A stretch of DNA of 22,418 bases from a virus: positions 1-22,418 of the IMG/VR virus record IMGVR_UViG_3300032291_000913. One strand, given 5' to 3'. The translations under genes were made by a program, and so were the position numbers. The first letter of the stretch is position 1. Each line of letters opens with the position of its first letter. Below, in pieces: positions 9,254 through 13,558 of the stretch. Below the pieces are notes generated by a model. It had not been told where the DNA came from, made no database searches, and saw nothing but the letters and a program-made list of their open reading frames with translations.

Positions 9254-9442
9254 ACGCCAGACTCGTATACCTTTTATACCCTCCTCAATCACTACTTTGT
9301 GAACAAATTCAAACTCTAAGCGTTCACTTTCTTTTTTAATAGCCAATACCGCTGCATCTGTATCAATCGCAGGTAAAAAGATAGATGAGCCTGGTTTAAA
9401 CTCAGACCAAAGTATTTGATAATCTGTTCCGTTAGTTAACAC
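9248..9442 (-). CDS. Small conserved phage protein (unknown function)
   Basis: A 64-residue protein starting with GTG at 9442. The start NGTDYQILWSEFKPGSSIFLPAIDT and the end VVIEEGIKGIRVWRL match a small protein I recall in many tailed phages, with layout G-T-D-x-x-x-L-W-x-x-F-K-P-G-x-S-x-F-x-P-A and a final G-V/I-R-V-W-R. Function is unknown. It overlaps the primase-helicase stop by 11 bases, so it is probably coupled to it, and its own stop overlaps the opposing late operon by 6 bases. It is the last gene of the early unit. Confidence 0.65.
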   Translation of the reverse strand: MLTNGTDYQILWSEFKPGSSIFLPAIDTDAAVLAIKKESERLEFEFVHKVVIEEGIKGIRVWRL

Positions 9443-12278
9443 TTCGTGGTATATCCAATGGTAAGTTGTTAGTCTTTATATCTTCAAACGTAGAGTTATC
9501 AATCCATATGCATCTTCTGCCTGAACCGCTAACCTCTAAACCTTTTTGAATAACTTTAAGTTCACCTGATTTAGGTTTTAATATATTGTTATCCCTAAGT
9601 TTAGCTATAAAATCTTCCATAGTTACGTTACCCTTAGTTTCTAGGTATGTGCGCATTATACCTACAGGAATGTAAATTGTGTTGACATCTGGCTCAATTC
9701 TTACTCTTAACTCATTGATTGGTTTAAGTAAAGGGGCTTCTAGCAATCCAGAACGAGCGTCTGTTTTACTATTAATTACTAAAGTATTCTTTAGGTTTTC
9801 ATGTAAAAACTCAGTTAACGTTTCCATAGCATCAAAATCACGGGCTTTTAAATCTACTCTTGATTTTTCTAATTCTGCATATATGGCTTTTTGGACAGGC
9901 TCTATTTCTATATTATGAATGCCTAACGCTTTAGCTATTTTAGCACCTAAAAATACTGCAGCTAATGTAGCTGAATATTTGCGGTCTTCTCCTGTAATGT
10001 TCCAAGCTTTGTCTATATTTTTTTGAGTATCAGCTAAAGCAGTTTTTACAGTATCTAAATTAGATATAATCCATTGGGCATATACTTCTCCCGCATGACC
10101 ATAGTTATCAAACAATTTACCAAAATAGTTATCTGCTTGTTCTTTAGTTAAAGAGCTATCTTTTTCAATACGTAATTGTAAGAACCTAGCCATTTCACCT
10201 GAAGCTTTAGCATTCTTCGAAAACATAACTGTTCTAAAATCTGTATTACTTGATACCACGCATATAAGATTAAATATAGTATCGTTTTGTCTTTCTTTAT
10301 TAGTGCCGCTACTACTCAATCTGTTTTTACCACGACCCATAGACATAAACTTTAAGAAGTCATGTAGTTGGTCTGGAGTTACCTTAGTAAATTCATCTAC
10401 AGCTGCAGGTAAATTGTTCATATAACCCATACGATTAATAACCGCATTACCAGTATCGCCCCATACTTGAATAAGGTTAGCATTCATTTCAGGGTTACCA
10501 TATACGCTAGTCATAGCTTGTAATACTGTTGACTTGCCTTGACCTGTGCCAGGATTGTATAAATTAATTACTGCTGATTTTTCTCTAGTTTTAAAAAAAG
10601 GCATTAGTAAAGAACCAAACGCACAGAAGAAACCAAATGCTCGTAACTCCATGCCAGGTCTTTCATATACTGATATAGCTTTTTTCCATTCATCAAAAGA
10701 ACCTTTTTTCTGTAAGGTAGAATTAACGTCTTTTAAATCTTCTGATACAGGAACATATTTAATACCAAAAGCACTAATCTCACGATTACCTATTACTATT
10801 TTATTAAAGGCAGCATTCCAACCATACTGTCTATACATGGTAGTTGCTTTCTTTTGTTTTTGATGCGCTTCTAATACTGCAATAATGTAATCAATAACGT
10901 GATCTAATCGTTTACCATTTTTAAATATACCTGTTGAGTTAAGAACTTTACTAGCAGTATCTCTAGTTAGTAACTGCGTTACAGGTGCTATAAATTCTTG
11001 CACTCCATCAAAGGGTAAGTGCATCTTAAACCATGCACAAAAACCAGAGGCATGATCGTGTAGTATCTCTACAAGATAAAAATCATAGTCATAAATTAAA
11101 ATGGCTTCCTCTTCCTCACCTGCAAGAGTTTTATATATACCACCATTCTTTCCTCTAAAATAGGGGAAAGGGTAATCAGGAATTTGATACGTTACAATCT
11201 CACCTAACTCTTCTGACTTAGCTTGTATAACATTATCTGCGCCTTTAGAACGTAGGATAACTCTACCTAATTCTATAGGAGAAGTAATTTTACCTTTGTG
11301 TTTACATCCATCACAGCCTTCAGGGCGTAATCCTTCAAATTGTTTACATGTATGAGGACCTGGAATGCCATTAGCTTTAACTTCTGTTTTAGCATACTCA
11401 TAGTCGGGATGATGTTTAGATATATTATGAATAGCAGCTTCTGCATCTTCACAGTATGCTGCAATAGATAAACCAGACCTCCACAAAGGTTCTTCTATGG
11501 TGGCTTGTTTAGTCATGATATGAACTAATTGTGCACAGCCGTCATCTTTACGACAGCGTTCGATAATCTTCATAAATTTAGAAGAGTTATTTCCTAGTAT
11601 AGCTTTTGTAGCTTCATCTAAAGGGCGTTTAGCTTTAGGTTTATCTGAAACATGTATAGGAATAAGTCTTGCTAACTCATCAAATGGTGTAGGCTTACCT
11701 TCATTAAGAATTACTACATCAGAAGGCTTTTCAAAGTTCTTAAAGTTTTTAGTGTTAGGAACTCTAAGTATACGAGCAACGTCAGCTGTGCACGCGCCAT
11801 CAGCCTTAAGTCCATGCTTAGCGCATAAGAATTTAAAACCCTCAGCAACTGGTAACCAGATAGCTTTATCTACAGGTTCTGTTAAAGACCAATAGCAGTG
11901 AATACCATTACCCGAGTCAACAATCGTAGGCTCTGGCAACTCTGTTGTATCTGTAAATTTACGTAGTGCTAGTAACGCTTCGTCTTTAGTTTCATAGTCT
12001 TTCCATTTACGTTTTTTAGCATCAAACCCACAATCTATATCTAGCCATAATATTTTTTGTTCTTTAGCATTATGTTTTTTACGTTCTGTATTTTCTGTCC
12101 ATGTAGAGCATGCAAAATAAACATCTTGTTTATCTTCTAAAAACCGATCAATTACTTTTACGGCGTCGTCTATGGAGTTTATGAATTTGGGAGTGACTAT
12201 ATTTTGTTGATCTTTACCTACTATGCAATAGTATCCTTGGTCAGACCAGATGTGTTGTAAAAATTCTTTTGTTTGCAT
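9432..12278 (-). CDS. Primase-helicase (AEP prim-pol plus AAA+/DUF927-like ATPase)
   Basis: This 948-residue protein probably primes and unwinds DNA at the phage fork. The N-terminal archaeo-eukaryotic primase (prim-pol) domain has LWLDID (Asp80, Asp82), SGNGIHCYW (His127) and the basic motif ADVARILRVPNTKN at 165-178. A Cys cluster at 309-325 (HTC, then CDGC) looks like a zinc-binding linker. The C-terminal ATPase has Walker A NPGTGQGKST at 575-584, Walker B LPAAVDEF at 623-630, a sensor-like SSNTD at 676-680 and an Arg-bearing MARFLQLR at 696-703. This fits DUF927-like or superfamily 3 phage helicases. The ATG at 12278 is preceded by GAGAGA. A structured leader lies directly upstream (12314-12381). 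Confidence 0.85.
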   Translation of the reverse strand: MQTKEFLQHIWSDQGYYCIVGKDQQNIVTPKFINSIDDAVKVIDRFLEDKQDVYFACSTWTENTERKKHNAKEQKILWLDIDCGFDAKKRKWKDYETKDEALLALRKFTDTTELPEPTIVDSGNGIHCYWSLTEPVDKAIWLPVAEGFKFLCAKHGLKADGACTADVARILRVPNTKNFKNFEKPSDVVILNEGKPTPFDELARLIPIHVSDKPKAKRPLDEATKAILGNNSSKFMKIIERCRKDDGCAQLVHIMTKQATIEEPLWRSGLSIAAYCEDAEAAIHNISKHHPDYEYAKTEVKANGIPGPHTCKQFEGLRPEGCDGCKHKGKITSPIELGRVILRSKGADNVIQAKSEELGEIVTYQIPDYPFPYFRGKNGGIYKTLAGEEEEAILIYDYDFYLVEILHDHASGFCAWFKMHLPFDGVQEFIAPVTQLLTRDTASKVLNSTGIFKNGKRLDHVIDYIIAVLEAHQKQKKATTMYRQYGWNAAFNKIVIGNREISAFGIKYVPVSEDLKDVNSTLQKKGSFDEWKKAISVYERPGMELRAFGFFCAFGSLLMPFFKTREKSAVINLYNPGTGQGKSTVLQAMTSVYGNPEMNANLIQVWGDTGNAVINRMGYMNNLPAAVDEFTKVTPDQLHDFLKFMSMGRGKNRLSSSGTNKERQNDTIFNLICVVSSNTDFRTVMFSKNAKASGEMARFLQLRIEKDSSLTKEQADNYFGKLFDNYGHAGEVYAQWIISNLDTVKTALADTQKNIDKAWNITGEDRKYSATLAAVFLGAKIAKALGIHNIEIEPVQKAIYAELEKSRVDLKARDFDAMETLTEFLHENLKNTLVINSKTDARSGLLEAPLLKPINELRVRIEPDVNTIYIPVGIMRTYLETKGNVTMEDFIAKLRDNNILKPKSGELKVIQKGLEVSGSGRRCIWIDNSTFEDIKTNNLPLDIPRSVN

Positions 12279-12313
12279 GTTTCTCTCGAAATAAGTTTTG
12301 CTGCTAAATAAGG

Positions 12314-12347
12314 GCTATCTTATGCAAACGGCAGATAGCGGTGCCGT
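12314..12347 (-). promoter_or_regulatory. Candidate H-type RNA pseudoknot in primase leader
   Basis: Read on the minus strand (the mRNA sense of the primase-helicase), the order is stem 1 ACGGCA (12347-12342), loop CC, stem 2 GCTATC (12339-12334), stem 1 partner TGCCGT (12333-12328), loop TTGCATAA, then stem 2 partner GATAGC (12319-12314). Both stems are 6 perfect pairs and abut with no gap, so they can stack coaxially. Loops of 2 and 8 nt fit the deep and shallow groove crossings of a classic H-type pseudoknot. On the plus strand the loop lengths fit poorly. The element ends 35 nt before the ATG. Base pairing is seen, but folding in the cell is inferred. Confidence 0.55.
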
Positions 12348-12356
12348 ATTGATGAC

Positions 12357-12381
12357 TGGTTAAACGGGAGGGGCTTAACCA
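12357..12381 (-). promoter_or_regulatory. Inverted repeat in primase leader
   Basis: TGGTTAA (12357-12363) and TTAACCA (12375-12381) form a perfect 7-bp stem around an 11-base C-rich loop on the minus strand. It lies 9 bases upstream of the pseudoknot in the same leader, inside a block (12311-12400) that is about 51% G+C in an otherwise A+T-rich window. No T-run follows, so a simple terminator is unlikely. It could be RNA structure or an operator for the adjacent HTH protein. Confidence 0.5.
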
Positions 12382-12402
12382 CCCACTTGCATTGCAGGTT
12401 AT

Positions 12403-12633
12403 TTAGTTTTGCTTTAAGCGTATTACTAAGTGCTTGATTTTTAAGTCAACTCGCTTAGAGGGTCTTGCTTTACCCGAAAACCAATCATACACTGTTTGAC
12501 GAGAAACGTTAAGCTCTTTCGCTACTTGACTTGCAGGGTATTTAAGTGCTATGCAAATAGCACCTAAAAGTGTTCCTGTTGTTTCTTTAGCTTTTAAATT
12601 AGCTTCTATAATACTCTGTGAATATCCCCGCAT
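12403..12633 (-). CDS. Small helix-turn-helix DNA-binding protein
   Basis: A 76-residue basic protein. A central helix-turn-helix reads YPASQVAKELNVSRQTVYDWF (roughly residues 33-53), followed by GKARPSKR and a Lys/Leu-rich end. The helix SRQTVYDWF resembles the recognition helix of Cro/Xre-type or homeodomain-like regulators. I chose the ATG at 12633 because it sits one base after the upstream stop and has GGA 6 bases before it. A TTG at 12654 would add 7 residues and overlap the previous gene by 20 bases. The gene lies directly before the inverted repeats of the primase leader, so it may regulate that gene or its own unit. This is inferred from position only. Confidence 0.7.
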   Translation of the reverse strand: MRGYSQSIIEANLKAKETTGTLLGAICIALKYPASQVAKELNVSRQTVYDWFSGKARPSKRVDLKIKHLVIRLKQN

Positions 12634-12634
12634 G

Positions 12635-13558
12635 TTAAGTCCAATCAGATACAAGATCGTCTAAACTTACGTCACCTTGATCAACTTTAGGTGCTGCTGG
12701 TTTTGGAGTAGCTGCTGGAGCAGGTTTTTCTGTAGCACGAACAGTAGGCTCTGGTATATCATCTTCTACTTTAGGTATCACAGGGTCAACAGGTCTAGCA
12801 ATAGGTTGTTGTTTTTTCTGCTCAAACTCTTCACCGTCTTCATCTTTATTAATGTTGACAGATAAAGTAATAGCACGTTTAGCTTCTTCTGAAGTTGATT
12901 TTGTAGAGCATACTGCATACTCTTCATCATTCAATACTCTGATTGGTTTAAACCCAATTTTTGTGCTTGATGAGTCTTCATCAAAAGAAACTCTTGATAC
13001 AACAGACATTAAGTTTTGACCATTAGCACGAACGTAATCTGTATATTCGTGTAAAGGTTTGCGGTCTTTAGTTCCATTACCAAAAATAGACTGTGCAGGT
13101 AATGTCATTTGATATATATCACCATTTAAATCATCAGCACGAACAACGGCAATACGTCTACTAAAACGACAAGCTTTAGTGCCAGATGGTCCAGAACCTT
13201 TAATGTTTTGAGGACATGCTAAACATGTATCTGCTTGTTTCTCAGGAACTGTATCATCAGGTTTTGTGCTATCTGAAGACCAGCATGCTGGTGGTGGCAT
13301 CTTTTCGCCTTGTCTAAACTCTTTGGCAAAATACATACGATGCACATGTGGTGATGCATTAACAATAACCACATCAAGTGCATCTTGATTAGACTTCTCA
13401 ATTTCTTTACCATTAACCATTAATCTAAATTTACCGCCTCGTATAGAAATACGTTTAGCAGTCATTGAACTTCCTGTAATGTTGGCAGTGAAGCCATCAT
13501 CTCTACGGGTGTGTGTTGTTACTGCGTTGCTACCAAATACATCTAAATCTGTGCTCAT
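12635..13558 (-). CDS. Candidate ssDNA-binding replication protein with Cys4 site
   Basis: A 307-residue protein belonging to a phage family I recall as uncharacterised or SSB-like. Residues 1-90 look beta-rich (ISIRGGKFRLMVNGKEI, then DVVIVNASPHVHRMYF). PPPACW is followed by Cys112, Cys115 and Cys130; together with Cys92 these could bind zinc. A second beta-rich segment includes YQMTLPAQSIFG. After residue 240 there is a long disordered Pro/Lys/Glu linker and a short acidic tail ending DDLVSDWT, similar in layout to the acidic tips of phage and bacterial SSBs. AAGGAG lies 5 bases before the ATG, and the start overlaps the upstream stop (ATGA). Position between promoter and primase supports a replication role. 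The SSB assignment is inference. Confidence 0.55.
   Translation of the reverse strand: MSTDLDVFGSNAVTTHTRRDDGFTANITGSSMTAKRISIRGGKFRLMVNGKEIEKSNQDALDVVIVNASPHVHRMYFAKEFRQGEKMPPPACWSSDSTKPDDTVPEKQADTCLACPQNIKGSGPSGTKACRFSRRIAVVRADDLNGDIYQMTLPAQSIFGNGTKDRKPLHEYTDYVRANGQNLMSVVSRVSFDEDSSSTKIGFKPIRVLNDEEYAVCSTKSTSEEAKRAITLSVNINKDEDGEEFEQKKQQPIARPVDPVIPKVEDDIPEPTVRATEKPAPAATPKPAAPKVDQGDVSLDDLVSDWT

Follow-up and report, generated by a model that had tools for sequence, protein, structure and literature searches.

To our knowledge, control of phage replication genes by an mRNA pseudoknot is known essentially from T4-type gene 32 only. The T4 gene 32 operator is autogenous, lying on the gene of the single-stranded DNA-binding protein (SSB) itself. 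A UUAAA/UAAA region of more than 40 nt between its pseudoknot and the AUG is essential (PMC535899). Among other described leaders, the T4 DNA polymerase gene (gene 43) is itself preceded by a hairpin operator, located about 40 nt upstream of the AUG, and the pseudoknot leader of Escherichia coli rpsO, encoding S15, is used in translational control (PMC3014915).

Here we describe a leader RNA upstream of a primase-helicase gene in a viral DNA stretch of 22,418 nt (the window; positions 1 to 22,418 of IMG/VR record IMGVR_UViG_3300032291_000913). Like the gene 32 operator of T4 and RB69, it contains an H-type pseudoknot in a replication-gene leader tens of nucleotides upstream of the AUG, and a possible gp32-like protein is encoded nearby. 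Unlike that operator, it is not located on the SSB gene but precedes both polymerase and primase genes, and it is larger and modular, with a second (loop-loop) pseudoknot, a covarying hairpin and tandem copies. It shares with the T4/RB69 gene 43 operator, a hairpin bound by DNA polymerase, the presence of a structured leader before a phage DNA polymerase gene. However, the T4 operator is a simple hairpin of 16-18 bases whereas the element described here is a double pseudoknot, and the phages of the window group carry it on the primase gene, their polymerase gene having no structured leader. The rpsO operator likewise has a pseudoknot in its leader, but there a ribosomal protein, S15, binds the leader of its own gene.

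Structure and covariation of the leader element

The original prediction for this locus was an H-type pseudoknot of two perfect, interlocking 6-bp stems on the minus strand (12347-12314), spanning -69 to -36 from the primase-helicase ATG at 12278, and sequence, strand, stems and coordinates were all exact on re-reading (Table 1). The bare pattern, taken alone, is not significant. A search for two perfect 6-bp stems with a loop 1 of 1-4 nt, an inter-stem distance of 0-1 nt and a loop 3 of 2-10 nt found one instance in the window compared to a mean of 0.6 per dinucleotide-shuffled window (at least one in 14 of 40 shuffles), and the leader reached only z = -2.2 by ordinary folding. Since the bare pattern is expected 0.6 times per window, it was not accepted by itself and comparative data were needed.

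A scan with the pattern of the window's element, referred to as class A, recovered 47 stretches, many of them not before a primase gene. Divergent class A copies were added using a covariance model, and covariation was assessed in 48 distinct relatives. The two reported stems alone are paired in 98.1% of 576 cells, with two-sided changes in 5 of 12 pairs and 15 compensatory cells against 1.9 in shuffles (0 of 500 as high), and pairing with slid partners is 18-56%. Covariation across the 48 distinct relatives thus upholds both predicted stems, with compensatory changes and 98% pairing, and a chance origin of the pseudoknot was rejected on these data. Judged by comparison of relatives, which settles the matter, the reported pseudoknot is real.

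The reported pseudoknot forms the 3′ half of an element of about 85 nt, the 5′ half of which had been missed in the original prediction. From 5′ to 3′, the element comprises a hairpin (P1), a second hairpin (P2) and the H-type pseudoknot (P3 and PK2), and the P1 loop pairs over 6 bp with the long loop of the H-type pseudoknot, forming PK1. P1 is 99.2% paired in the 48 distinct relatives and shows two-sided changes in all five pairs. The intervening P2 covaries freely: 44 of 48 distinct relatives form this hairpin, using 20 different 5′ hexamers, and it is absent from L061, L134, the second copy of L115, and L117. Two-sided changes were found in three of the six pairs of P3 (96.9% paired), the telling case being ACGGTA/TACCGT in L114 and L151/L179, and in two pairs of PK2 (99.3% paired), for example ACTACC/GGTAGT in L118. 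PK1 is 100% paired in 48 sequences; its outer pair changes from A-U to G-C in four sequences and to G-U in one, its second pair changes from U-A to U-G in two, and the telling case is TTGCAC opposite the P1-loop sequence GTGCAA in L079, L094, L107 and L134.

Taken together, the four core helices (P1, PK1, P3 and PK2) comprise 23 pairs, of which 11 show two-sided changes, and 98.8% of 1104 cells are paired in the 48 distinct sequences. They contain 73 compensatory cells against 16.5 in shuffles (0 of 500 as high), and pairing falls to 23-41% with slid partners. The two pseudoknot helices alone are 99.7% paired with 10 compensatory cells against 1.6 in shuffles (0 of 500), and, like the two reported stems, they lie above all shuffles in cells paired, compensatory cells and covariation score. 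Seven of the 12 pseudoknot pairs never vary, and PK1 and PK2 are therefore supported, but by few independent changes, PK1 especially. The RNA might alternate between P1-loop pairing and the H-type fold instead of forming both simultaneously. Across the core helices, G-U cells number 73 and A-C cells are absent, indicating that the folding strand is the mRNA strand, and on this pattern of substitutions the mRNA strand is the strand under selection. Conserved positions are nearly all helical, with few conserved unpaired bases.

Table 1 Coordinates of the leader element, its parts and the neighbouring genes in the window
Feature	Position	Strand	Description	Basis
P3 (stem 1 of the reported pseudoknot), 5′ strand	12347-12342	-	ACGGCA	read directly
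Loop of the reported pseudoknot	12341-12340	-	CC	read directly
PK2 (stem 2 of the reported pseudoknot), 5′ strand	12339-12334	-	GCTATC	read directly
P3, 3′ strand	12333-12328	-	TGCCGT	read directly
Long loop of the reported pseudoknot	12327-12320	-	8 nt, TTGCATAA	read directly
PK2, 3′ strand	12319-12314	-	GATAGC	read directly
P1 hairpin	12382..12398	-	CCTGC 12398-12394 / GTGGG 12386-12382; 7-nt loop AATGCAA	covariation
PK1, 5′ strand	12387..12392	-	ATGCAA, inside P1 loop; partner 12327-12322	covariation
P2 hairpin	12357..12381	-	9-bp stem, loop CCCTCCC; starts 0 nt after P1	comparison of relatives
P3 (stem 1)	12328..12347	-	ACGGCA / TGCCGT	covariation
PK1, 3′ strand	12322..12327	-	TTGCAT, inside the pseudoknot's 8-nt loop	covaries with 12392-12387
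PK2 (stem 2)	12314..12339	-	GCTATC 12339-12334 / GATAGC 12319-12314	covariation
Linker	12279..12313	-	35 nt before the primase-helicase ATG; weak ribosome-binding site GAGAG 12287-12283	read directly
Primase-helicase	9432..12278	-	948 aa; DUF927; PHROG DNA primase/helicase; presumed controlled gene	
Small helix-turn-helix (HTH) protein gene	12403..12654	-	stop codon 4 nt before P1	
307-aa Cys4 protein	12635..13558	-	possible gp32-like ssDNA-binding protein; gene without structured leader	

Genomic context and other structured leaders

The primase-helicase is encoded in 70 viral loci, and all 70 leaders contain a structured element at the same site, the folds belonging to three mutually unrelated classes: class A in 22 leaders, a different structured RNA (class B) in 20 plus one mutated B copy, and a plain G+C-rich hairpin (class C) in 27. 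The phages related through the element are from freshwater. Class A and class B elements are found in sense orientation just upstream of only two gene types, the primase-helicase, which is the target of the element in window-like phages, and a family-A DNA polymerase, its target in a second phage group. Nearly all copies lie directly upstream of one of these genes on the same strand, and the apparent exceptions have cargo genes between the element or array and the polymerase, or lie where the contig ended or was altered. In L077, L115, L122 and L177, cargo genes are inserted in the gap between array and polymerase; judged by eye, their likely products include an HNH endonuclease and two 2OG-Fe(II) oxygenases, and a further cargo gene in this gap encodes a 149-aa protein. 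The suspicion of a group I intron beyond the arrays in L077/L105 was dropped, the sequence having no Rfam match.

The second group's polymerase and primase are about 40% and about 30% identical to those of the window, respectively, whereas several other proteins are about 80-95% identical. Its polymerase leaders carry the element alone, in tandem or beside unrelated structured RNA, in arrays that include B, BA, BAA and BABA, and its primase has a different, stem-loop leader (class D). Class B is also found in some second-group-like primase leaders (L120, L128 and L157). This distribution of classes A and B over polymerase and primase leaders indicates that the modules have moved between genes. 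The polymerase leaders of several close relatives (L239, L243, L250 and L252) lack any element, which is therefore dispensable. The spacing from PK2 to the AUG is 26-35 nt in primase leaders and mostly 16-27 nt in polymerase leaders (single or last copy), and the linker of the window is 66% A+T. In most primase leaders the distance between the HTH stop codon and the beginning of P1 is -1 to +6 nt, and the four long contigs scanned each contain one class A copy.

L061 and L280 represent the same 8.8-kb contig, which combines a window-type primase, preceded by class A, with a polymerase that shares 77% identity with that of the second group. Going by these identities, this mosaic phage is direct evidence of replication-gene exchange between the groups. 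In the L013/L102 primase leader, class A is immediately preceded by a degenerate class B copy (GGGCGAAAGCACTTTTTATATG...TAGCCTACC), which suggests transfer of a B-A unit and subsequent loss of B.

Class B is a second unlisted structured RNA of the form GGGC-GAAAGCAC...ACCGCGAGUA-GCCC (L018:2850-3000, with 54 copies aligned to it), which precedes the same two genes as class A and often lies immediately before it. Its GGGC/GCCC stem covaries (GGGU/ACCC, GAGC/GCUC) and its internal GAA/AGUA resembles the loop E (sarcin-ricin) motif. A UUGC/GCAA stem did not hold in more sequences, and only GGGC/GCCC and the GC/GY pairs are predicted. Class D, in the second group's primase leaders (L186-L199), is a stem-loop (for example, CCUCCG...CGGAGG) that contains an inner hairpin as well as an A-rich internal loop and lies shortly before the primase start and downstream of a promoter-like TCGACA-N16-TAAAAT. 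Class E, located between B-A arrays and the polymerase in L115 and in L077/L090/L093/L111, appears to be a further H-type pseudoknot, with apparent stems CUUACAC/GUGUAAG and GUGCGAG/CUCGCAC.

Searches of Rfam 15 returned no match for the window at curated thresholds, none for the leader when relaxed to E = 5, and no family match for class A in eight related loci; relaxed matches in a class B locus (mir-7552, S4-Flavobacteria) were discarded because they scored below threshold and lay outside the element on the opposite strand. The class A pattern had no match among 84,980 prokaryote species genomes, blastn against 50,697 phage records found no related DNA, and the stretches of Rollin, KPP25, RHph_TM3_14A and Xp15 that were searched gave no model hit. 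The 20 prokaryote-genome matches to the class B pattern fit our estimate of chance for so loose a pattern. We found no report of the double-pseudoknot element in the open literature that was searched.

Alternative explanations

The 307-residue protein contains four invariant Cys and was found in 21 of 21 long contigs tested, covering both phage groups. It has no sequence match in PDB, and its AF2 model, of low-to-medium confidence (pLDDT 67.6), resembles the gp32 core to a middling degree (RB69, Z 6.6; T4, Z 5.3; over 150-157 residues) and the phiC31 RDF with Z 8.6. The C-terminal tail of the window group, SLDDLVSDW, is acidic, whereas that of the second group, VSSIINKWSAKS, is not. The modelled fold is weakly gp32-like, and as such compatible with an ssDNA-binding protein but not proof of one. 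According to the original prediction, this protein could control primase-helicase translation as in T4. In such a scheme it would nucleate on the pseudoknot, spread over the linker and repress the primase or polymerase when free ssDNA is scarce. The similar pseudoknot distance, the fold, and the Cys residues and occurrence of the protein favour such control, which we nonetheless consider unlikely. In the 16 phages read, the protein's own gene lacks a structured leader and its ribosome-binding site is strong, matching AAGGAG or nearly so; the 35-nt window linker contains neither UUAAA nor UAAA, and, unlike in T4 gene 32, only 16-27 nt separate element and AUG in most polymerase leaders. Furthermore, the RNA core hardly varies from one group to the other, whereas their 307-residue proteins are only about 28-38% identical, and unrelated structures also occupy the same sites. 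Since the T4 operator is autogenous and needs the UUAAA/UAAA tract, both of which are missing here, the element is not of the gene 32 type. What holds of the original prediction is a conserved pseudoknot in a replication-gene leader at an AUG distance like that of T4 gene 32, borne out by coordinates and covariation. Its proposal of T4-like control by the 307-residue protein agrees with the pseudoknot, the distance and the weakly gp32-like fold and fails on the autogenous site and the tract, and the same element before the polymerase and the larger fold with a second pseudoknot also speak against operation of the gene 32 type. By analogy, the element may work as the T4 operator does only insofar as both are leaders of phage replication genes.

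Since folds of unrelated type replace one another at the site, the main rival is an intercistronic mRNA processing or stability element. Its compact fold would stop a ribonuclease or designate where cleavage occurs, and would thereby shield the 3′ end upstream or the 5′ end downstream. Any stable structure would suffice for this, so classes A and B and plain hairpins would be interchangeable, in keeping with structures of unrelated fold in all primase leaders at the same site, mostly adjoining the upstream stop codon, and with tandem copies in polymerase leaders. However, a mere barrier does not need a near-invariant PK1 and PK2 common to two phage groups, and close relatives manage without the element; we regard this explanation as possible, if rather doubtful. 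The compact, aptamer-like pseudoknot fold with its near-invariant core, and tandem and B-A arrangements as in tandem riboswitches, could point to a riboswitch that senses a small molecule such as a nucleotide and gates the replication genes, but the scarcity of conserved unpaired bases for a pocket, the non-metabolic target genes and the lack of an Rfam riboswitch match make this quite improbable. It is similarly hard to credit that the element is a module of selfish or mobile DNA, or a replication site of folded ssDNA, located only incidentally before replication genes: its presence in some close relatives and absence from others, its transfer between the leaders of polymerase and primase, its tandem copies and the cargo genes inserted alongside would fit, yet sense-strand G-U wobbles without A-C mismatches, constant sense orientation, short AUG spacing and the restriction to one locus on each of the four long contigs scanned argue against it. 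Small ribozymes typically have multi-pseudoknot folds, and by this general resemblance the leader could harbour a self-cleaving ribozyme, but with few invariant unpaired bases and no Rfam ribozyme match we consider this extremely improbable.

A putative role in replication-gene expression

The position, orientation and target genes of the element point to a putative role in cis control of expression. We propose, with belief and doubt evenly weighted, that it is a conserved cis-acting leader RNA controlling expression of the adjacent gene, most likely at translation initiation, and that it probably sets the amount of replication enzyme made. Translational control is favoured since in most copies the fold ends 16-35 nt from the AUG and since P1/PK1 could be opened by a ribosome terminating upstream. 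The folded element, perhaps held by a phage or host factor, would hinder the 30S subunit at this distance from the AUG, or alternatively its CUCC-bearing P2 loop might be offered to the Shine-Dalgarno sequence. Because the P1/PK1 5′ strand of the window group directly adjoins the upstream HTH stop codon, a ribosome terminating there would open the 5′ half, and this could couple the HTH gene and the primase-helicase. The plain hairpin found instead in 27 primase leaders would equally suit a mechanical or stability role.

The P2 loop (12372-12366 in the window) is variable except for a recurrent CUCC, which resembles the anti-Shine-Dalgarno sequence and is kept in two copies without a P2 stem (the second copy of L115, and L117). 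Pairing of the P2 loop with the Shine-Dalgarno region barely beats shuffled loops, with 4 of 200 shuffles as good, and sequestration by the CUCC loop was set aside as a weak signal only. As for a regulator highly conserved between both groups, only a Lys/Arg-rich protein of 60 aa, without obvious function, stood out (L321-L323; 21734-21916 in G016). It is 77% identical between the groups, compared to 30-40% for polymerase, primase and SSB, and is a possible nucleic-acid-binding candidate. The other early proteins conserved between the groups are presumably enzymes, judged by eye.

More tentatively, the element may represent a new regulatory RNA class, a double pseudoknot whose upstream hairpin loop captures the long loop of the H-type pseudoknot. 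It would be one of several interchangeable, tandem-stackable modules swapped between polymerase and primase leaders, tuning the replisome via a shared factor or via coupling to upstream translation. The defined new RNA fold is available for structural work, and the matched leaders that occur naturally (A, B, BA, BAA, BABA, plain hairpin and none) offer a set for testing the effect of leader structure on the phage replisome. What is new here is an RNA fold that putatively serves as a leader element of phage replication genes: a covariation-supported double pseudoknot, unrelated to that of T4-type gene 32, that, across dozens of uncultured phages, precedes two replication genes, between which it has been exchanged along with other folds.
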